Source: Rufibacter immobilis
GTDB taxonomy: Bacteria > Bacteroidota > Bacteroidia > Cytophagales > Hymenobacteraceae
Direction: 5' to 3'
Length of the DNA stretch: 64,000 nucleotides
Assembly (NCBI RefSeq): GCF_003721565.1
Contig: NZ_RJJE01000017.1
Coordinates: 248,001 to 312,000, forward strand
Both the position numbers and the translations under genes were made by a program. Each line of letters opens with the position of its first letter. Position 1 is the first letter of the stretch. The notes under the pieces are model-generated. The model searched no databases. It was given only the letters and a program-made list of their open reading frames with translations, and was not told the DNA's origin. Below are positions 2,961-11,718 of the stretch, in pieces.

Positions 2961-3136
2961 TGGCCCATACTTCCCCCACCGGTACAGATCTGAACGCCAT
3001 CCTCACACAGGAGCAGGATGCGCTCTTGGATCTGTACCTGCAAAACCTGGACAACTTCTTTGAGAATCAGAAAAACGCTGAGAAGATTCAGGTAGAAATT
3101 GAGACGCAGCACCTTAAAAAGATACTGTCTGAATGA
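2960..3136 (+). CDS. 58-residue protein coupled to the TelA-like gene
   Basis: This small gene begins on the final base of the TelA-like stop (TAATG) and ends in an ATGA overlap with the next gene, whose ATG is at 3133. The predicted 58-residue protein starts MAHTSPTGTDLNAILTQEQD and continues as an acidic amphipathic helix ending HLKKILSE. There is no signal peptide or membrane segment. One-base and four-base overlaps on both sides are strong evidence that it is translated as part of the operon. No function is known. A small adaptor or subunit of the TelA-like complex is a guess. Confidence 0.75.
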   Translation: MAHTSPTGTDLNAILTQEQDALLDLYLQNLDNFFENQKNAEKIQVEIETQHLKKILSE

Positions 3137-3963
3137 TGGATTTCATGCGCTCCCTGTTTGGGAGGAAAGAAGAGACGGGCAGCAGAAAAGTGGTGGGCGC
3201 TCCGGCCGATTTCGGGTTGCAGGAGGTGGCATACATGCAGGAATCCAATAGGCGGCTTAGTCAGTTGCAGGAACTCTCCACGCGCTTTGCCGGAACGCCG
3301 CACGCCCCCAAAATGAAGGCGGTGTATGAGAAGTCCCGCAACATCCATGCGTATCTGGTGTCGCGTAAGAAAGTGCATGAACTGGAAATGTTCCACCTCC
3401 AGAATACAGACCATTTCATTACCGCGTTCACCGCCATTCTGGATGTGCACCAAAAGCACCAGGACCTGTTGCTGGCCTCTACCCACGGCTCAGAAAAGGT
3501 AGAGCCCGCTATGAAAAGCAGCGCGGCGGAGCGCCTGAAACGCTTGGAAAAGGCTGCCACGCTGCCTGATCTGGTAAAGCCCGTGGAGACATCTGTGCAG
3601 GTGTACCATGACCGCGGCGCCAAAGCTACCGTGCCCCGCCTCTATGTGCCCGAAATCTCCATCAATACCTTTGAGCGCATTACGTACTATGCTCCCACTA
3701 AGGCGGAGGAACTGGTGCCTAAACAGGTAGGGTTCACTTCGTCCAAAGAAGAGAAAGAAGCTTTTCAGGATTTTCTCATGCTGCGGTTGGGGCTTAAGGA
3801 TGTGTCTTATGTGGGCAACGCGCTGGTGACCATCCCCAACAACAACGGCATCACACCCACCGGACTGGTGCCCGTGCTCCACTGGGAAGGCTTTCTCTAT
3901 GCCCTCAACCTGAATGACTACCGTCTGTTCCCCGTCAAGATTTACCGTTCCAGCGGAAAATAA
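3133..3963 (+). CDS. Hypothetical protein, last gene of TelA operon
   Basis: A 276-residue protein of unknown family. Residues 1-15 are basic (MMDFMRSLFGRKEE). Residues 30-130 are predicted helical with heptad-like leucines (RRLSQLQELSTRF). Residues 165-276 look like a mixed alpha/beta domain with several aromatic residues. There is no signal peptide, no transmembrane segment and no obvious catalytic motif. Its ATG overlaps the stop of the 58-residue gene. It ends 10 bp before the full-length palindrome at 3974, which it shares as a putative terminator with the convergent ctaA. Possibly a cytoplasmic partner of the TelA-like protein. Confidence 0.75.
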   Translation: MMDFMRSLFGRKEETGSRKVVGAPADFGLQEVAYMQESNRRLSQLQELSTRFAGTPHAPKMKAVYEKSRNIHAYLVSRKKVHELEMFHLQNTDHFITAFTAILDVHQKHQDLLLASTHGSEKVEPAMKSSAAERLKRLEKAATLPDLVKPVETSVQVYHDRGAKATVPRLYVPEISINTFERITYYAPTKAEELVPKQVGFTSSKEEKEAFQDFLMLRLGLKDVSYVGNALVTIPNNNGITPTGLVPVLHWEGFLYALNLNDYRLFPVKIYRSSGK

Positions 3964-3973
3964 CGCATCTACT

Positions 3974-4027
3974 AACCAAGCCGTTTAGGGGCCGTTTTTA
4001 GAAAAACGGCCCCTAAACGGCTTGGTT
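3974..4027. terminator. Class I palindrome, bidirectional terminator overlapping ctaA stop
   Basis: A perfect inverted repeat: two 26-bp arms (3974-3999 and 4002-4027) around a 2-base centre. The 38-bp core (CGTTTAGGGGCCGTTTTT and its complement) is at 3982-4019. The outer 8 bp, AACCAAGC/GCTTGGTT, are found at no other copy. It lies between two convergent genes, and the TAG of the core is the stop codon of ctaA. Confidence 0.85.
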
Positions 4028-5059
4028 GTTTGGGGCATACGTATACCGTAATTGGTGCACCGTAAGCAAAGTACTGGAGTAGAGAACCACCGCCACCACT
4101 TGGTGCAGCACTCCCAAACTTACCGGCACCTGCATTACCAAGGTGGCAATTCCTAAACCCACCTGCACCAATACCACCAGCAGCAGAACCTGAATAGTGT
4201 GTTTCGTACGCAGCGATATTGCCGCTGACCGGCTCATGAACCAGAACCGCAGGAACAGGAGCAGCACCAGCATGGCTACCCAACGGTGCACAAACTGCAT
4301 GAGCGACCCGTTTTCCATGAAATTGCCCCAGGTGAGGATTTCGCCCAGCACAGATGGGAAGAACTCGTGATTCATGAGCGGGAAGGTGTTGTAATAGAAC
4401 CCCGCCTTGAGGCCGGCCACAAATGCGCCTAAAACAATCTGTACCAGCACCGCGCCCAGCAGCCAATAAGAGAAGCGGGTTAAAGAGGTGGCGAAGTGTT
4501 GCCGTTGGTCATGTTTAAGCCGCAGGTCAGCCACTGTCCAAAGGATGGTGCCGATGAGCGCCAGAGCCAAACAGAAATGGGCAGCCAGCCGGTAATGGCT
4601 CACGTGGGGGTTGTCTACCAGTCCGCTTTTCACCATGAACCACCCCATGGCACCCTGGAGCATCCCCAGGAACAGAATGAACAGCAGCCGCTTGAGCAGC
4701 CAGTCCTTGAGCCTTTTCTGGAGCAGAAACACCCCGAACGGAATGAGAAAAACAATGCCTATGACCCGGCCCAGGAGACGGTGCAGGTACTCCCACCAGA
4801 AGATCTGTTTAAAGCCCGCCAGGCTCATGCTGTAGTTCACTTTCTGGAACTCAGGAAATTGCTGGTATTGCCAGAACGCTTTCTGCCAGGCTTCTTCAGA
4901 GAGCGGCGGCAGCGTGCCGGAGATGACGTTCCATTCCACAATGGAAAGGCCGGAACCCGTTAACCGGGTAATGCCCCCAATAACCACCATGGCCAGAATG
5001 AGAAAAGCGCCCGTGAGGAGCCAGTACTGTATGCTTTTGGTATTGCTTGCGGTATGCAT
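4013..5059 (-). CDS. ctaA: Heme A synthase, CtaA/COX15 family
   Basis: Inner-membrane enzyme that oxidises the C8 methyl group of heme O to make heme A for cytochrome oxidase. About 348 residues with eight hydrophobic segments. The four family histidines that act as heme ligands are visible in EYLHRLLGR, HVSHYRLAAHF, FVHRWVA and GVLHQVVA. The N-terminal GGITRLTGSGLS and GAMGWFMVKSGL signatures also fit COX15/CtaA. The ATG at 5057-5059 is preferred; an upstream ATG at 5080 would add seven residues. The last residues (NQAV-stop) are encoded by the palindrome at 3974-4027. No cytochrome oxidase genes are next to it. A tandem kinase gene upstream is separated by another perfect palindrome (5185). 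Confidence 0.95.
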   Translation of the reverse strand: MHTASNTKSIQYWLLTGAFLILAMVVIGGITRLTGSGLSIVEWNVISGTLPPLSEEAWQKAFWQYQQFPEFQKVNYSMSLAGFKQIFWWEYLHRLLGRVIGIVFLIPFGVFLLQKRLKDWLLKRLLFILFLGMLQGAMGWFMVKSGLVDNPHVSHYRLAAHFCLALALIGTILWTVADLRLKHDQRQHFATSLTRFSYWLLGAVLVQIVLGAFVAGLKAGFYYNTFPLMNHEFFPSVLGEILTWGNFMENGSLMQFVHRWVAMLVLLLFLRFWFMSRSAAISLRTKHTIQVLLLVVLVQVGLGIATLVMQVPVSLGVLHQVVAVVLYSSTLLTVHQLRYTYAPNNQAV

Positions 5060-5184
5060 GTGTCCAGAGAAATAAGGCAAAACTCTGGAAAAGGGCAGGA
5101 GGAATCAGTGACCAATCTCATCCCTAAAGATGACCTGCGTCAGTTTCTGGGAATGGAGACGGATGAAAAGGAACGTGATTCGTT

Positions 5185-5238: not shown

Positions 5239-8200
5239 TTAATTAAGACTGCTGAAAGGGAAGCGGTTGGTGTTGAAGTATACTTTAAAGGTAGTGCCTT
5301 CACCCAGCGTGCTTTCTACCTCAATTTTGCCGCCTGCGTTGTTGATGATCTTTCTCACCATGTAAAGGCCAATGCCAGACCCGTCTACGTGGTCATGGAA
5401 GCGCTGGAACATAGAGAAAAGCTGTTCCTTTTGCTCCGGACTTAGCCCCAGACCATTGTCCTGCACGCGCAATACCACAAACTCGTCCTCTTTTTTGCAG
5501 GAAAGCTTGATGTGGACCGTGCGTTCTGGGGAGCGGTATTTCACGGCGTTGGAAAGCAAGTTGTAGACAATGCTCCGGAGGTTCTTTTCAGAGAAGGAGA
5601 TGTAGGGGCAGGCGGCAATGTCAAGATCTATCTTGGCCTGCGCTTCCTTGAGCATAGGCTCCAGGTCAAGGGTGACGTCTTGTATCAGCTGGGCCAGGTC
5701 TATGGTGCTGACTTCGGTGGTGTTGTGCTCGTTCTGTAGTTTGGTGATCTCGGTGAGGTTGCCAATGGTTTTCTTGAAACGCTCCACCGCGCCCTGCATC
5801 ATGTTCATGATCTGCTGCACGTCTACCATCTCATACTCTTCCTGCGGCAGCTCTACCTGCAACTCACGCAAAAGCGCCTCTATGTTATGGATAGGGGCCT
5901 TTAAGTCATGCGAGGCGGTGTACACGAAATTGTCCAGGTCATCAATCACGCGCAGCAGGTGGGCGTTGGTTTCCTTCAGCTTCAGCTGGGTGTCTTTGAG
6001 GTCTGAGAGATCAATGAACGAGCCCAACACGCGGTACGGCATCTGGTACTCGTTGTGCAGGATGTAGGCGCGGTTGTAGACAAAGGCGTACGTGCCGTCT
6101 GCCCTAATCAGCTTGAACTCCTCCACCCATTGGTCCTGGCCCGTGTTGATGGCTTCATTGATACTCTGCACCACGCGTTGCCGGTCCTCTGGGTGGATTT
6201 TGCTGAACCAGCTGTTCACGCCGGTGCCCATTTGGGCGGGTTCATAGCCTAAGATGCTTTTGAGGGTGTCACTCCACCACAGTTCATTGGAGATGAGGTT
6301 CCAGTCCCAGATGACGTCATTGGTAGCCATGGACACCAGCCGGAAGCGGTCTTGGCTGGCGGTTAGTTCCTGGGTTCTCTCGGCCACCCGTAGCTCCAGC
6401 TCGCTGTTGAGTTTGAGCAGGTTTTCCTCAGCTTTCTTGAGGTCTTCATAGGCCAGCAGGATTTTCTCCTCGCTGTTTTTCTTCTCGGTGGTGTCGGCCA
6501 TGGTGAGGGTTAAGCCATCGCCCATTTTGGCGGCGGCAATCTCATACCAGTTGCGCTGGCCGTTCAGTTCCAGGCTCTGCTCTATGTGCAAAGGCTGACC
6601 GGTTTCCACCACCTGCATGAATTTACGGAACAGCCCCGTTTTCTTGAGGAAGGACATCTCAGACTGCACACTTTGGTGCAGCAGTTGCTCCTGGGGTTTG
6701 CCAATGAGCTGCTCGGCCTGCTTGTTGAGCAGGCTCCAGTTGAAATCAGTGATTTCCTGCTCCTGGTTACGCACCGCCGTAAAGGCCATGATGCTGCTCA
6801 GGGAACTGTTCAGGACTCCCTGCACCACATTGCTGAGGGTTTTAAGGGTGGTCACCTCCACAAAGCTGAGCACTACGCCGTCTTTGTTGCCGTCATGCTT
6901 CAGGTAGGGGATAATGCGCAGCAGGAAATATTTGCCGTCCATGGTTTCTATCTCCTGCTCAATCTCTGCTGAGGTGTTGTTCACCTTCTGGATGTCCTCG
7001 AGCCAGCGGGTGTACTTGAAGTTGTGCGACAGGTGATGGATGGGCCTGCCCAGATCAATGTCAATGATGTTGATGAGCTCTTTCACGTTGGGCATGAACT
7101 TCCTGATGACCAGATGGTGGTCCAGGAACAGCTGCCCAATGTTGGAGCTCCGGATGTAGTTGTCCAGGTCCTCGTTGAGTTCCTGCAGCTCTTTTATCTT
7201 GAGCTGGTGCTCAGAGTTTACCGTGTGCAGCTCCTCATTGAGGGATTGCATCTCCTCATTGGAGCTTTGCAATTCCTCATTGGAAGACATAAGCTCCTCA
7301 TTGGTAGACTGCAATTCTTCATTGGAGGTACTCAGGTCCTGTACGGTGAGGTGCAGGCTTTCACGGGCCTCCTTCAGTTCCGCCTCCAGTACCGACAGCT
7401 GGTGGTAGTAATCTGTGTCTGCCTGTGTGACCAGAGAAGGCTCCAGGGTTTTGAGCGAGGGACTTAGTTTGCCCATTTCCTGCAGCAGCACCAAAATAAC
7501 CTTGGGCAGGTCTTTTTCCACTGAAATGGGTTTGACCGTAAGGTGCACCAACTGGTTTTTAGTACCCATCTTCACCATCACCTGCCTAGACAGGGTTTTA
7601 GGGTTTTTCAGTACTTTCCTGATGTCTACGCTCAAGGTCACGGCTAGCTCTTTGGGCACCATTTTGAGCAGGTTCAGCTGCAGGCGCTTCTCAGGAAGTT
7701 TGAGGAAGCGGTTGAAATCACCTATGCCGTGCAGTAGCTGGTAGTTGTCGTCTATGTAGAGCCCGGTCATTTTGAGGTCCTCGGCCACGGCGTCCATGAA
7801 CAGCTCGTTGTACCGTAGTACCTGGGTATTGCGGTAGTTGGGGCTGCCTTCGTCTGAGAGTGCCCGCGTGTGCTGCGTTACCCCATAGGTTTGTTGAAAG
7901 CCTTTGCTTTCCTTCACCTTCTGGAAGAGTTTCCATTTGCGGTTACGCTCCACAAAAAGAGATTTGAGGTCGCTCACCAGATGCTCGCTGGGCCCCAGAA
8001 ACAGGAAGCCGTGCAGCTTTAACGCGTACGGGAACACAGACAGTACCTTTTTCTGCAGGTCAGGATTAAGGTAGATGAGCATGTTGCGGCACGAGATTAA
8101 GTCTATGCGGCTGAACGGCGGATCCTTCTGGAGATCATGTTGCGCAAATACCACCAGCTTGCGCAATTCTTCTTTGATGATATAGCGGTTGCTTTTGTGG

Positions 8201-9372
8201 TGGAAGAAGCGCTGGAGCCGGTCTTCAGACACATCCTTGGTAATGGAAGCAGTATAGGTCCCTTTGGAGGCCTGCTTAATGGCCCGCTGGTCAATGTCTG
8301 TGGCAAACAGCTTTACGTGCGGCTCACGTCCCATGCGCTCAAAGCATTCCTGAAACAGGATGGCAATGGAATAGACTTCCTCGCCGGTACTACAGGCGGT
8401 AACCCACACTTTGATGGTTTCTTCCGGCGGCGTTTGGGCTATAATCTGAGGGATCACTTCCTGTTCCAGCGTCTCGAAGGCTTCGGGGTCGCGGAAAAAA
8501 CGGGTTACCCCAATCAGAAATTCCTGGCAGAGCTGCTTGATTTCGGCCGGGTTCTCATGGATGTAGTTCAGGTAATCGGGTAGGGTGGGTACATTGAGCA
8601 AATCCACCCGCTTTTTGAGGCGGCGGTAAATAGTGCCCTGCTTGTAGTTCTTGAAATTGGTCTGGGTATGGGTGCAAATAAGGTCCAGGATTTCCTGCAA
8701 CACCTCATCATTCTCTTCTAAGCTATTATTCCGCTCAATTATGGTCTGTACCAGCGGGATTTGGCGGGTGTATTCCAGAATTTCATTGGGCATACGTTCA
8801 GGGGGAAAAACATAATCAACAAAACCAGCGTCAATGGCGCTTCTGGGCATGCCGTCAAACTTGGCGGTGGATGGGTCTTGCACCATCACCATGCCTCCGG
8901 CAGCCTTAATCATTTTCACGCCTTTGGTGCCGTCTGTGCCCGTCCCGGACAAGATAATGCCTATGGCGTAGCGGCCAAGGTCATTGGCCAGGGATTCAAA
9001 GAAAACATCTATGGCGAAATTGGGCTCCCGGTTCCTGATCTGGTCTGTCAGGCGAAGGCGCCCGTTCCGGATGGTCAATTGTTTGCCGCTGGGCAACACA
9101 TAGATGCAATTGGGGCGGGTAGCCATTTTATCTTCGGCTTCCTGCACCCGCATTTTGGTGTGTTTCGTGAGCAGCTCGGCCATAAGACTCTTGTGGTCTG
9201 GCGAGAGGTGCTGGATAATGACAAAGGAAAAGCTTGAATTATTGGGGAAATGGTCAAAGAGTTTATGGATCGCTTCCAGTCCGCCAGCAGATGCGCCTAT
9301 CCCAATGAGGTAGTGATCTGTTTTTGGGAGTATGTCTGGTTGTTGTACGCGTACCATAGGCAAATGACTCAT
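5239..9372 (-). CDS. CheB-CheR-PAS-histidine kinase fusion
   Basis: A 1377-residue multidomain signalling protein. Residues about 20-200 form a CheB methylesterase domain (GIGASAGG with nucleophile S28, QHLSPDH, GTGTDGTKG). Residues 215-480 form a CheR SAM methyltransferase (VWVTACSTGEEVYS, DLISCRNMLIYL). Residues 660-760 are a coiled coil with repeated NEEL heptads (STNEELMSSNEELQSSNEEM). Several PAS regions follow, including a PAS/PAC ending near YRVLGSFIDLSDLK. The C-terminal kinase has the H-box FVYTASHDLKAPIHN, N-box NLLSNAVKY and G-boxes DNGLGL and GSGIGLYMV. There is no receiver domain. CheB and CheR usually set chemoreceptor methylation, but no receptor or CheA is nearby, so here they may instead modulate the kinase. 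It lies 39 bp downstream of the bacteriophytochrome gene in the same direction, making it the probable output of that photosensor. Confidence 0.95.
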   Translation of the reverse strand: MSHLPMVRVQQPDILPKTDHYLIGIGASAGGLEAIHKLFDHFPNNSSFSFVIIQHLSPDHKSLMAELLTKHTKMRVQEAEDKMATRPNCIYVLPSGKQLTIRNGRLRLTDQIRNREPNFAIDVFFESLANDLGRYAIGIILSGTGTDGTKGVKMIKAAGGMVMVQDPSTAKFDGMPRSAIDAGFVDYVFPPERMPNEILEYTRQIPLVQTIIERNNSLEENDEVLQEILDLICTHTQTNFKNYKQGTIYRRLKKRVDLLNVPTLPDYLNYIHENPAEIKQLCQEFLIGVTRFFRDPEAFETLEQEVIPQIIAQTPPEETIKVWVTACSTGEEVYSIAILFQECFERMGREPHVKLFATDIDQRAIKQASKGTYTASITKDVSEDRLQRFFHHKSNRYIIKEELRKLVVFAQHDLQKDPPFSRIDLISCRNMLIYLNPDLQKKVLSVFPYALKLHGFLFLGPSEHLVSDLKSLFVERNRKWKLFQKVKESKGFQQTYGVTQHTRALSDEGSPNYRNTQVLRYNELFMDAVAEDLKMTGLYIDDNYQLLHGIGDFNRFLKLPEKRLQLNLLKMVPKELAVTLSVDIRKVLKNPKTLSRQVMVKMGTKNQLVHLTVKPISVEKDLPKVILVLLQEMGKLSPSLKTLEPSLVTQADTDYYHQLSVLEAELKEARESLHLTVQDLSTSNEELQSTNEELMSSNEELQSSNEEMQSLNEELHTVNSEHQLKIKELQELNEDLDNYIRSSNIGQLFLDHHLVIRKFMPNVKELINIIDIDLGRPIHHLSHNFKYTRWLEDIQKVNNTSAEIEQEIETMDGKYFLLRIIPYLKHDGNKDGVVLSFVEVTTLKTLSNVVQGVLNSSLSSIMAFTAVRNQEQEITDFNWSLLNKQAEQLIGKPQEQLLHQSVQSEMSFLKKTGLFRKFMQVVETGQPLHIEQSLELNGQRNWYEIAAAKMGDGLTLTMADTTEKKNSEEKILLAYEDLKKAEENLLKLNSELELRVAERTQELTASQDRFRLVSMATNDVIWDWNLISNELWWSDTLKSILGYEPAQMGTGVNSWFSKIHPEDRQRVVQSINEAINTGQDQWVEEFKLIRADGTYAFVYNRAYILHNEYQMPYRVLGSFIDLSDLKDTQLKLKETNAHLLRVIDDLDNFVYTASHDLKAPIHNIEALLRELQVELPQEEYEMVDVQQIMNMMQGAVERFKKTIGNLTEITKLQNEHNTTEVSTIDLAQLIQDVTLDLEPMLKEAQAKIDLDIAACPYISFSEKNLRSIVYNLLSNAVKYRSPERTVHIKLSCKKEDEFVVLRVQDNGLGLSPEQKEQLFSMFQRFHDHVDGSGIGLYMVRKIINNAGGKIEVESTLGEGTTFKVYFNTNRFPFSSLN

Positions 9373-9411
9373 TCTTCAAAATTCAATAGTAAAACAGGCA
9401 ATGGTGCCTTC

Positions 9412-10968
9412 TCAGTACCTGTCTTTGATTATTTTTTCCAGTACAGCGCTCCGCAAGGTCTCAGCGGCCTCCACTTCCTCAGCCAGCCATGGCAACGATG
9501 TGTGCTTAACCGTCTGCTGGTAAATAGCAAAAGAATTACGCGGATGGTACGTTTTGCCATCTGGCTCCATCTGGATGGCCTGGTCTGGATTACCGCCCCA
9601 ACTGATGGTCTGGAGCACTTCTGGCCGGAAGCCAAGAATGTACTCGCCCTGCTCTGCGTTGATGGGCAAGGCAATGAGGCCGCTGGCCAGCTCTTTGTAA
9701 TCACGGGCCCGTACATATTGGTTGGGCAGTGAATCTGTGGCGTAACTCCGTTCGGTTTTATTTCGGCGGAGCCAGTAAATGAGCTCCTTCAGGTCCTGTG
9801 CAGAGGGTACGGAGCCGCTCGTCCATACGCCGCCTTCGTATAACACGGCTGCGCCTGATAGGTTTAGGAGCGTTGCCAGACTTGTGTTTCCGGTTAAAAG
9901 TCCATCGGCGAAGTTGGGGATGGTGTATAGCTGTTCCAGCAATTGGGCATGGATACCGCTTAAACGCGCCTTTCGCTCAATGGAGTTCTCGCGCTCCTTA
10001 GAGGCTAACTGCGCAGAGATAATGCCCGACAGCAACTCCAGCGCCGACCGCATCTCATAGCCGGGGTTTTTAGGCGTTTTGTTGTGGCAGGAGATGAGGC
10101 CCCACAGTTTGTTGTCAATGATCAACGGTAATGACATAGAGGCCTGAATCTTCAGGTTACCCAAATACTCTAAATGCACGGTAGCCACACTGCGCAGGTT
10201 GCACTCAGACAAATCTGTGAAACGCTGGGTAAACGGGTTTATAACAGGGTTTAAGCGGACCGGTGTATAATCGCGCGCCGGGATAAGCCGGTAAGGGTTG
10301 CTGAAGTACAGATCTCTGGCCTGTTTGGGCACATCTGAGGCCGGGAACCGGAGGTCCATGAAATCATCCATGTCCTCTTCCTTGGCCTGGCCCACTACAA
10401 TGCCGTTCCACTGTGGGTCAAACTGGTAGGCGAGCACACGGTCAAAGCCCGTCATGTCCTTGAGGGCCTCCACGGCCAGCTGTGTGATCTGCTGGGTGCT
10501 GCGGGCCTGTTTCAGTTGCGACGTGATGTACTTGATCTGCTGGTAGAGCTTCAGGAAAGATTCCTGTTGGGGAGGATTCTGGTTGTCTTCCAGTTCCATG
10601 AGCACGTATTCCTCTTTGGGGTGCAGCAGCGCGGTATACGTCACCTCCTTGCCTTGCACCAGAAACGTGAGGCCAAACGGAATCTTCTCTCTGCTTTCAG
10701 CTTTCTGTAGTTTATCCTGGAGGTCCTCCAGTTGCTGTGCCGGAAGAAATTTGGCAATGGGTTCATTTAGAATATTGAGGACCTTATCCCCCAGCAATTG
10801 CTCGGCATTCTCGCTTACCTGTATCAACCGCAGGTTGGCCTTGTCTAAGGTGAGCAGTACTCCATGAGGCTGAATCAGGTTCACCAGGTGCAGCGGAATG
10901 CTGCCGCAGAACTCTGAGTCATAGTTCTTTTCTGGAGTAATACTGATGGGGGCTTGTAAATTTTCCAT
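9412..10968 (-). CDS. Bacteriophytochrome photosensory module (PAS-GAF-PHY) without kinase
   Basis: About 518 residues covering exactly the three photosensory domains of a bacteriophytochrome. The N-terminal cysteine (C21 from the ATG at 10968) stands in the EFCGSIPLHL context that aligns with the biliverdin-binding Cys of DrBphP (CEREPIHI), just before LIQPHG of the PAS domain. The GAF domain carries FPASDVP (DIP motif), the TVHLEYL histidine and LWGLISCHNKTP (second pyrrole histidine). The PHY tongue carries SWGGNP and the PRNSF motif. The protein ends shortly afterwards with no HisKA/HATPase. It should bind biliverdin and switch between red and far-red states. The kinase gene immediately downstream is the natural partner. 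No heme oxygenase (biliverdin source) is visible in the window. A start at 11007 would add 13 residues. Confidence 0.93.
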   Translation of the reverse strand: MENLQAPISITPEKNYDSEFCGSIPLHLVNLIQPHGVLLTLDKANLRLIQVSENAEQLLGDKVLNILNEPIAKFLPAQQLEDLQDKLQKAESREKIPFGLTFLVQGKEVTYTALLHPKEEYVLMELEDNQNPPQQESFLKLYQQIKYITSQLKQARSTQQITQLAVEALKDMTGFDRVLAYQFDPQWNGIVVGQAKEEDMDDFMDLRFPASDVPKQARDLYFSNPYRLIPARDYTPVRLNPVINPFTQRFTDLSECNLRSVATVHLEYLGNLKIQASMSLPLIIDNKLWGLISCHNKTPKNPGYEMRSALELLSGIISAQLASKERENSIERKARLSGIHAQLLEQLYTIPNFADGLLTGNTSLATLLNLSGAAVLYEGGVWTSGSVPSAQDLKELIYWLRRNKTERSYATDSLPNQYVRARDYKELASGLIALPINAEQGEYILGFRPEVLQTISWGGNPDQAIQMEPDGKTYHPRNSFAIYQQTVKHTSLPWLAEEVEAAETLRSAVLEKIIKDRY

Positions 10969-11718
10969 TGGTGAGGGATTTGTTAGGCAAACGAAATCAA
11001 AACGCACAGCGCAGGCGGCTCCTCTGCTGTGTACTAAACGTTGCCAGACCTCCGGAAAAACACGGATCTAAAATAGGTCTGCCAAAGCAAGGTCTTCTAC
11101 CCAAATGTACGACAGGTTGGGAAACTTCAAAAATAAGGCAATAAGTCAAAGGAGGCGGATAGGGGAAAGAAAGGGAAGAAGAAGAACTGCGGAGACACAA
11201 AAATAAGCATACTGTAACCTGTGGTTGAGCTAATACTTACGAAAACAACCGGAGTATTGGATTTTGGAGCGCGCTTCTTCTCCGTTTTCACCTCACAAGT
11301 CGTTGCAATGCTTTCGTTCTCCTATGTCAGTTCCAATTGCGTTTAGGGACTGTTTTTCCAAAAATAGCCTCTAAACGCCATTGGAGTGCAATCCCTCTTC
11401 TCCGGTCTCACAACAGAAATACATCTGTAACAGGTGGTTCACGCTTAATTGATTATGGATTGAATATTTTATTTCATTTAAAAATACAATTATTGTTGTG
11501 CTGGTTTAGGGGGTGAATGATTGAGGATTGAGTTTAAATTCAATAGGAATATTTCTGAAGATGGTAAAGCTTAAATAGCATTGCTGGAGTACAATTTTAT
11601 GAAATATAAATGTCTATGCAATAGGAGATTGGTGAACTTATGGGTGGCGTTTCTGGTTTGACCAATCAAGATAATTATACCATATAAAATAGTTTGCTAA
11701 ATATAAATTCACTGTTGC
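10969..11718. other. Divergent AT-rich intergenic region
   Basis: 750 bp between the phytochrome (minus) and the large exported protein (plus). It holds a decaying class I palindrome at 11332-11385. The right half is AT-rich and probably carries the promoter of the exported protein. A TAGTTTGC at about 11691 resembles a -7 element but has short spacing. No gene is seen. Confidence 0.45.
11332..11385. repeat. Class I palindrome, partly decayed
   Basis: The 38-bp core is at 11340-11377 with a few arm mismatches. The outer arms TCCAATTG and CCATTGGA still pair except at one position, so this looks like a once-longer perfect palindrome that is degrading. Confidence 0.75.

Follow-up and report, generated by a model that had tools for sequence, protein, structure and literature searches.

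Architecture of the pair

The stretch of DNA analysed here (hereafter the window) comprises 64,000 nucleotides of the Rufibacter immobilis genome (assembly GCF_003721565.1, contig NZ_RJJE01000017.1, positions 248,001 to 312,000) and carries, on its minus strand, a bacteriophytochrome photosensory module directly followed by a large protein, referred to below as the partner, that joins CheB, CheR and PAS domains to a histidine kinase (Table 1). An earlier note made from the sequence alone had described a phytochrome that ends after its PHY domain, 39 base pairs (bp) from such a kinase, and its coordinates, domains and chromophore residues are confirmed. Together, the two genes probably constitute a split bacteriophytochrome two-component system, in which the kinase would be driven in trans by its separately encoded photosensor.

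Table 1. Features of the phytochrome–partner pair, in window positions
Feature	Positions	Strand	Basis or remark
Kinase-less bacteriophytochrome photosensory module, PAS-GAF-PHY, 518 residues from ATG	9412..10968	minus	Pfam; terminates directly after PHY
Cys21 codon	10906..10908	minus	Alignment; Cys in 85/85 paired phytochromes
PHY tongue motif PRNSF, residues 476-480	9529..9543	minus	
Gap from phytochrome to partner, 39 bp	9373..9411	minus	
Partner, CheB-CheR-(PAS-like)-helix-PAS_10-PAS_4-helix-PAS_3-histidine kinase, 1377 residues	5239..9372	minus	
CheB methylesterase domain, receiver-less, residues 20-200	8773..9315	minus	S28/H55/D147 intact
CheR methyltransferase, residues 222-480	7933..8709	minus	Pfam; S-adenosylmethionine-motif residues intact
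PAS-like block, residues 535-633	7474..7770	minus	Predicted strand/helix order; no Pfam PAS match, fold unconfirmed
Predicted helix of 81 residues, residues 662-742	7147..7389	minus	Glu-Glu pairs each 7 residues
PAS_10 domain, residues 736-841	6850..7167	minus	
PAS_4-helix-PAS_3 segment, residues 860-1125	5998..6795	minus	Proposed phytochrome input element
Histidine kinase core, residues 1126-1368	5269..5997	minus	Phospho-acceptor H1155

The phytochrome frame, which has an alternative in-frame GTG start at 11007, matches PAS_2, GAF and PHY and contains no domain C-terminal of the latter. Cys21 aligns with a Cys of the closest solved phytochrome (best profile match 9jry, 2.2e-157), and the PASDVP motif including D212, the GAF histidines H265 and H295 and the tongue arginine R477 are all present; in phytochromes, these are the positions that hold the bilin. 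The molecule thus combines the PAS-GAF-PHY order, N-terminal bilin Cys, PASD motif, two GAF histidines and PRxSF tongue of a bacteriophytochrome photosensory module, while scoring only 251.8 against the cut-off of 1040 of the BphP equivalog NF041576, being without a C-terminal kinase. The same genome also encodes a kinase-bearing phytochrome of 760 residues.

Pfam domains of the partner are CheB_methylest, CheR_N, CheR, PAS_10, PAS_4, PAS_3 and HATPase_c; its HisKA score (17.8) lies below the cut-off of 26.9, and H1155 and the HATPase domain are nonetheless clear. H1155, N1275 and D1305, belonging to the His, N and G boxes, are intact, so that all domains of a CheB-CheR-PAS_10 fusion kinase stand in a single chain together with their active-site residues, to which we assign the catalytic roles presumed for CheB, CheR and kinase. 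Those of all three activities are intact in 39/39 partners checked. In a model of partner residues 500-1130, for which 38 of the 39 partner sequences were used, the mean predicted local distance difference test score (pLDDT) is 80.6 and four blocks show PAS order (approximately 535-633, 745-839, 860-960 and 1020-1121), with helices of 81 (662-742) and 56 (962-1017) residues between blocks; because the predicted template modelling score is 0.37, the arrangement of the domains was left unused. The last two blocks (residues ~853-1127) match PAS folds among solved structures, best for PAS_3 (Z 17.7, root-mean-square deviation 1.3, 108 residues aligned), and the first, PAS-like one was barely covered by this comparison.

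Conservation of the pairing in Bacteroidota

A survey of 59 relatives for PHY domains was positive in 37, and in the fetched stretches the partner lies directly downstream of 25 of the 26 short phytochromes, the 26th (L040) being a broken kinase-bearing gene. To these were added two loci from a phylum sample and 80 named loci; the latter were the top 80 among at least 585 matches and were selected because they resemble the kinase-less clade, so that the 59-relative survey and the phylum sample stand as the samples not chosen in this way. Once identical phytochrome cores had been collapsed to one, 126 remained, and a partner directly follows 85 of the 89 kinase-less phytochromes compared with 0 of the 37 kinase-bearing ones. 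With L040 and L152 set aside as pieces of broken kinase-bearing genes, the proportion is 85/87. Five of the 85 partners are truncated, either at a contig end or through a broken frame, and two of the 85 phytochromes are more than 97% identical to each other. The gap between the genes ranges from -56 to 367 bp across the 85 loci, as measured from longest-frame starts, so that larger overlaps may be start-codon artefacts.

Both exceptions retain the association in another form. In L132, CheB-CheR and the kinase, in two frames, lie upstream and are followed by phytochrome, heme oxygenase and response regulator; in L138 (L138:6357-10500), a heme oxygenase and the phytochrome precede a PAS kinase of 795 residues that has no CheB-CheR, and the sole CheB match of this metagenome-assembled genome (MAG) is a 202-residue frame elsewhere. 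Among 395 evenly drawn genomes of the phylum, three matches above cut-off lie in frames shorter than 620 residues, one of them that of the window, and all three are paired; two fragments that scored below the cut-off were not counted. Pairs occur in Hymenobacteraceae, Rhodocytophagaceae, Cesiribacteraceae, Sphingobacteriaceae and a Chitinophagaceae MAG, in lineages that include Rufibacter, Pontibacter, Adhaeribacter, Rhodocytophaga, a Cesiribacteraceae, Mucilaginibacter, Pedobacter, Sphingobacterium, Hufsiella and Paradesertivirga; cyanobacterial and alphaproteobacterial loci of the named set have kinase-bearing phytochromes. The earlier note, which would have been contradicted by genes rarely adjoining in relatives, had envisaged conservation across Cytophagales; the opposite of rare adjacency was found, and it reaches beyond that order. 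Since sensor and kinase are directly adjacent in many Bacteroidota, they very probably work together as a two-protein light sensor.

In an alignment that excluded L152, Cys21, D212, H265 and R477 are invariant in 85/85 paired phytochromes and H295 is kept in 82/85; past the end of the window phytochrome, the chain extends by 0-2 residues in all 85, as against 213-266 in 36 kinase-bearing phytochromes.

Conservation of the pair exceeds descent without rearrangement, for the flanks turn over while the pair stays. Among 80 of the 85 paired loci, considering two genes on each side, any homologous flanking gene is common to 45/534 locus pairs whose phytochromes are 60-70% identical and to 6/601 below 40% identity. 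A tree of 41 kinase-less and 18 kinase-bearing phytochromes places the former in one clade (support 100). The partner tree (39 of the 85 partners and 14 CheB-CheR-PAS_10 proteins unlinked to a phytochrome) requires one change; the support of that branch is only 36, so that a single partner origin is compatible with the tree rather than demonstrated by it. The Mucilaginibacter sequences among which those of Sphingobacterium nest are the same in the two trees. Of 39 genomes compared, 19 have a kinase-less phytochrome, each together with a partner frame of 1362-1387 residues; judged by the length and domains of their frames and by the tree, the other 20, including the same-genus G002, have no partner, and the two long CheB-CheR proteins of G039 fall outside the partner group by domain content and tree.

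Proposed input segment of the partner

When 19 partners from Cytophagales are compared with 20 others, mainly from Sphingobacteriaceae, the chains are collinear through PAS_3 at 29-67% identity. PAS_4, the following helix and PAS_3 are covered at 0.97-1.00 (identity 32-48%), and the kinase dimerisation helix at 0.32 (identity 22%); by sequence, the Cytophagales and the other partners use different kinase cores. Extra PAS domains are frequent in Sphingobacteriaceae partners. The 14 unlinked CheB-CheR-PAS_10 proteins have the front half in common with the partners, and cover PAS_4, helix and PAS_3 at means of only 0.39, 0.09 and 0.24, respectively. Conversely, the L138 partner keeps PAS-helix-PAS_3-kinase and is without CheB, CheR, the Glu-pair helix and PAS_10. 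When its segment was searched against 19 genomes, the best match was the phytochrome-linked kinase in 13/13 pair-bearing ones (E 4.5e-46 to 1.7e-36, mostly near full length); matches to other proteins are partial and reach 3.0e-32 at best, with a partial match of 6.1e-29 in the pair-less G002. Mirror-tree correlations are high for every part of the partner (0.85-0.93), and nominally highest for PAS_4-helix-PAS_3. Because this segment is collinear across partners, little covered by the unlinked proteins and kept in L138, it is the likeliest candidate for the site of phytochrome input.

Proposed mechanism and output

We infer the following route from light to output. Cys21 of the kinase-less phytochrome would bind a bilin, probably biliverdin, and the protein would switch between the red-absorbing (Pr) and far-red-absorbing (Pfr) states; acting in trans, it would dock on the kinase encoded next to it, with PAS_4-helix-PAS_3 ahead of the kinase core as the likeliest site, and this contact would alter the autophosphorylation or phosphatase activity of the partner, with phosphate passing to a stand-alone response regulator. 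The N-terminal CheB and CheR may add a second, tuning layer, whose substrate would not be a methyl-accepting chemotaxis protein (MCP) in most Sphingobacteriaceae.

Output by phosphotransfer is likely, because the kinase residues are intact and a lone response regulator stands beside 12/85 pairs (9 downstream, 3 upstream). Heme oxygenase lies directly upstream in 13/85 paired loci, the L036 copy being in pieces, which is good evidence that the phytochromes of those lineages would carry a bilin. Response regulators and heme oxygenases were called with purpose-built profiles of six and three sequences, respectively, and Pfam confirmed 4 of the lone response regulators and 3 of the linked heme oxygenases. 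As to the suggestion of the earlier note that a split photoreceptor feeds a methylation/phosphorylation hybrid, its split half is strongly supported by the 85/87 linkage; of its hybrid half, phosphorylation is likely and methylation of chemoreceptors is unlikely as a general rule.

Alternative explanations

It is very improbable that the two genes are mere neighbours without a functional tie. The next gene on the same strand, COX15, seems to be just that, so same-strand adjacency alone proves little; what argues for a tie is the 85/87 versus 0/37 linkage, the turnover of the flanks, the reordered L132 cluster and the joint absence of both genes from 20 genomes. Pairing of the kinase-less phytochrome with the kinase-bearing one of the same cell, independently of the neighbour, is likewise very improbable: the 760-residue protein would make it feasible in R. 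immobilis, yet in several genomes (for example G003, G005, G006, G012 and G018) the kinase-less molecule is the sole PHY match and the partner is still adjacent. The partner's CheB and CheR might instead modify chemoreceptors, the phytochrome setting the methylation state of MCPs and light thereby tuning chemotaxis. Their intact residues and the MCPs found in all five pair-bearing Cytophagales genomes searched, with one in that of the window, agree with this; however, in 15/16 pair-bearing Sphingobacteriaceae genomes PF00015 gives no MCP match that passes its cut-off (in one of these a weaker match is present), the MCP cluster of the window's genome has its own CheB, and the L138 partner has no CheB-CheR at all. 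We regard light-tuned chemotaxis as distinctly improbable, and chemoreceptor methylation is unlikely as a general output because of the Sphingobacteriaceae counts and L138, though it may apply in the window's genome with its one MCP. Over all genomes searched for MCPs, whose completeness is unstated, 6/22 were positive and 16/22 had none above cut-off.

Several observations weigh against a light-driven split system. The window pair is without an adjoining response regulator in the profile survey of the 85 loci; an AlphaFold2 model of the phytochrome (12 sequences) is poor, with a mean pLDDT of 65, and no claim is built on it; the L138 partner is known from one MAG; and at 80% phytochrome identity or above, flank genes are common to 26/28 locus pairs, as expected of close relatives. 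Adjacency and correlated distances are, moreover, equally expected from plain co-inheritance. Regarding the chromophore, for which a heme oxygenase of the same genome is the usual but not a strictly defining source, the heme oxygenase family PF01126 was matched in 0/16 genomes of the window genus, where controls matched and other heme oxygenase families were not searched, and the three-sequence profile of the linked enzymes, run without a positive control, gave no match in the window's genome at E values up to 10. The genus could use another bilin-making enzyme, take up a bilin, or have a phytochrome that is not a bilin photoreceptor at all and senses temperature, redox or heme, or is kept by linkage alone. 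The last is unlikely: in spite of the missing PF01126, the one heme oxygenase family searched by Pfam, Cys21, D212, H265 and the tongue arginine are invariant in 85/85 paired phytochromes, including those of lineages with a heme oxygenase upstream, and the invariance of the chromophore residues favours another enzyme or uptake. Phytochromes are found in 16/16 genomes of the genus despite the absence of PF01126 matches.

The claim of the earlier note that the kinase has no receptor of its own nearby is true of chemoreceptors: the genome's sole MCP match is on the same contig but at a distance of ~335 kb, where a separate CheB gene adjoins it. That MCP (L176, G000:C10:588000-602000) is a giant protein of 1821 residues with ~14 HAMP matches, and next to it are encoded CheW, CheB, a CheA-like kinase and a lone response regulator. 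Most genomes of the family that were searched likewise have a single MCP in a long frame.

Glu-pair helix and possible self-methylation

The predicted 81-residue helix of the window partner contains five Glu pairs exactly 7 residues apart and flanked by Ser/Thr, in what we take to be a likeness to the methylation helices of MCPs. In 39 partners, the spacing of Glu pairs is 7 in 179/181 cases, and residues 655-735 are the part of the partner most conserved between lineages (67% identity). Against the methylation-site pattern that we assumed for MCPs, each helix gives 4-6 matches to a loose form, compared with 0.3 in shuffled sequences. By-eye comparison across 39 genomes placed 46/46 helix matches at E 1e-8 or better in CheB genes; these correspond to 45 genes, one of them in a broken frame beside its own CheB. 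Neither the L138 partner nor any of six PAS_10 kinases that have no CheB-CheR shows the four-pair pattern.

These data raise the possibility, which we hold only tentatively and consider rather unlikely, that the CheR and CheB of the partner methylate and demethylate its own helix, allowing adaptation to steady light without a chemoreceptor. Two facts speak against such self-methylation: the strict MCP site occurs at most once per helix, and Glu pairs are found outside CheB-CheR fusions, L187 (832 residues, no CheB motif) carrying the four-pair pattern and L190 and L192 three pairs. Because of L187, L190 and L192, an exclusive tie of the helix to CheB-CheR was rejected; the tie is strong rather than absolute.

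The six PAS_10 histidine kinases mentioned above (L182-L186) are short, at 363-425 residues, and resemble the back part of the partner without CheB or CheR.

Relation to known systems

Bacteriophytochrome histidine kinases that act with a separate response regulator are known, as in DrBphP and PaBphP. The window sensor resembles them in its PAS-GAF-PHY order, the position of the bilin Cys, the GAF histidines and the PHY tongue, but is without a fused kinase, this function residing in a separate CheB-CheR-PAS protein. The pair would accordingly work like a bacteriophytochrome two-component system while lying outside the BphP kinase family, because the sensor has no kinase fused to it and scores far below the equivalog cut-off. 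The CheB-CheR-PAS_10 fusion architecture is already known; the 14 unlinked examples share the receiver-less CheB, CheR, the Glu-pair helix and PAS_10 with the partner and differ in having no phytochrome within the 6-16 kb fetched around them, and such unlinked members coexist with pairs in the same genomes.

Signalling from a phytochrome to a separate PAS-containing protein, as proposed here, is known from RpBphP1 and PpsR2, from which the BphP1-QPAS1 tool is derived; there, unlike in the window pair, the phytochrome retains its C-terminal domains and acts on a transcription repressor. Most phytochromes studied so far relay their signal through an unbroken helix to an output domain in the same chain. 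A photosensor tied to chemotaxis signalling, as may hold for the window pair, is described for Ppr of Rhodocista centenaria (PMC2993699, PMC2890560); unlike the pair, Ppr is one fused chain that includes a histidine kinase domain, and its species has three chemotaxis-like operons (PMC2890560).

In the open-licence literature searched, by titles and abstract openings, the pair is undescribed, and this fixed and widespread sensor–kinase partnership appears new. The lineage lets one ask how a phytochrome drives its partner in trans, and the pair offers a ready two-part red-light tool; receiver-less CheB-CheR-kinase fusions in turn gain a candidate input signal, mostly in genomes that do not have the classical substrate.

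Neighbouring genes and related loci

COX15 (4013-5080) was considered as a further member of the unit and rejected, other genes coming next in most relatives; the window, L035 and L051 each have a same-strand gene of 355-358 residues after the pair, its identity as COX15 being established for the window copy alone. The window also encodes a TelA-family (toxic anion resistance) protein at 1854-2960 and, after it, a 276-residue protein without Pfam or NCBIfam match at 3133-3963.

In another locus (L178, G040:C1:5299000-5308000), a lone response regulator and a stand-alone CheB of 200 residues precede a kinase-bearing phytochrome, a further case in which a phytochrome is linked to receiver-less CheB.

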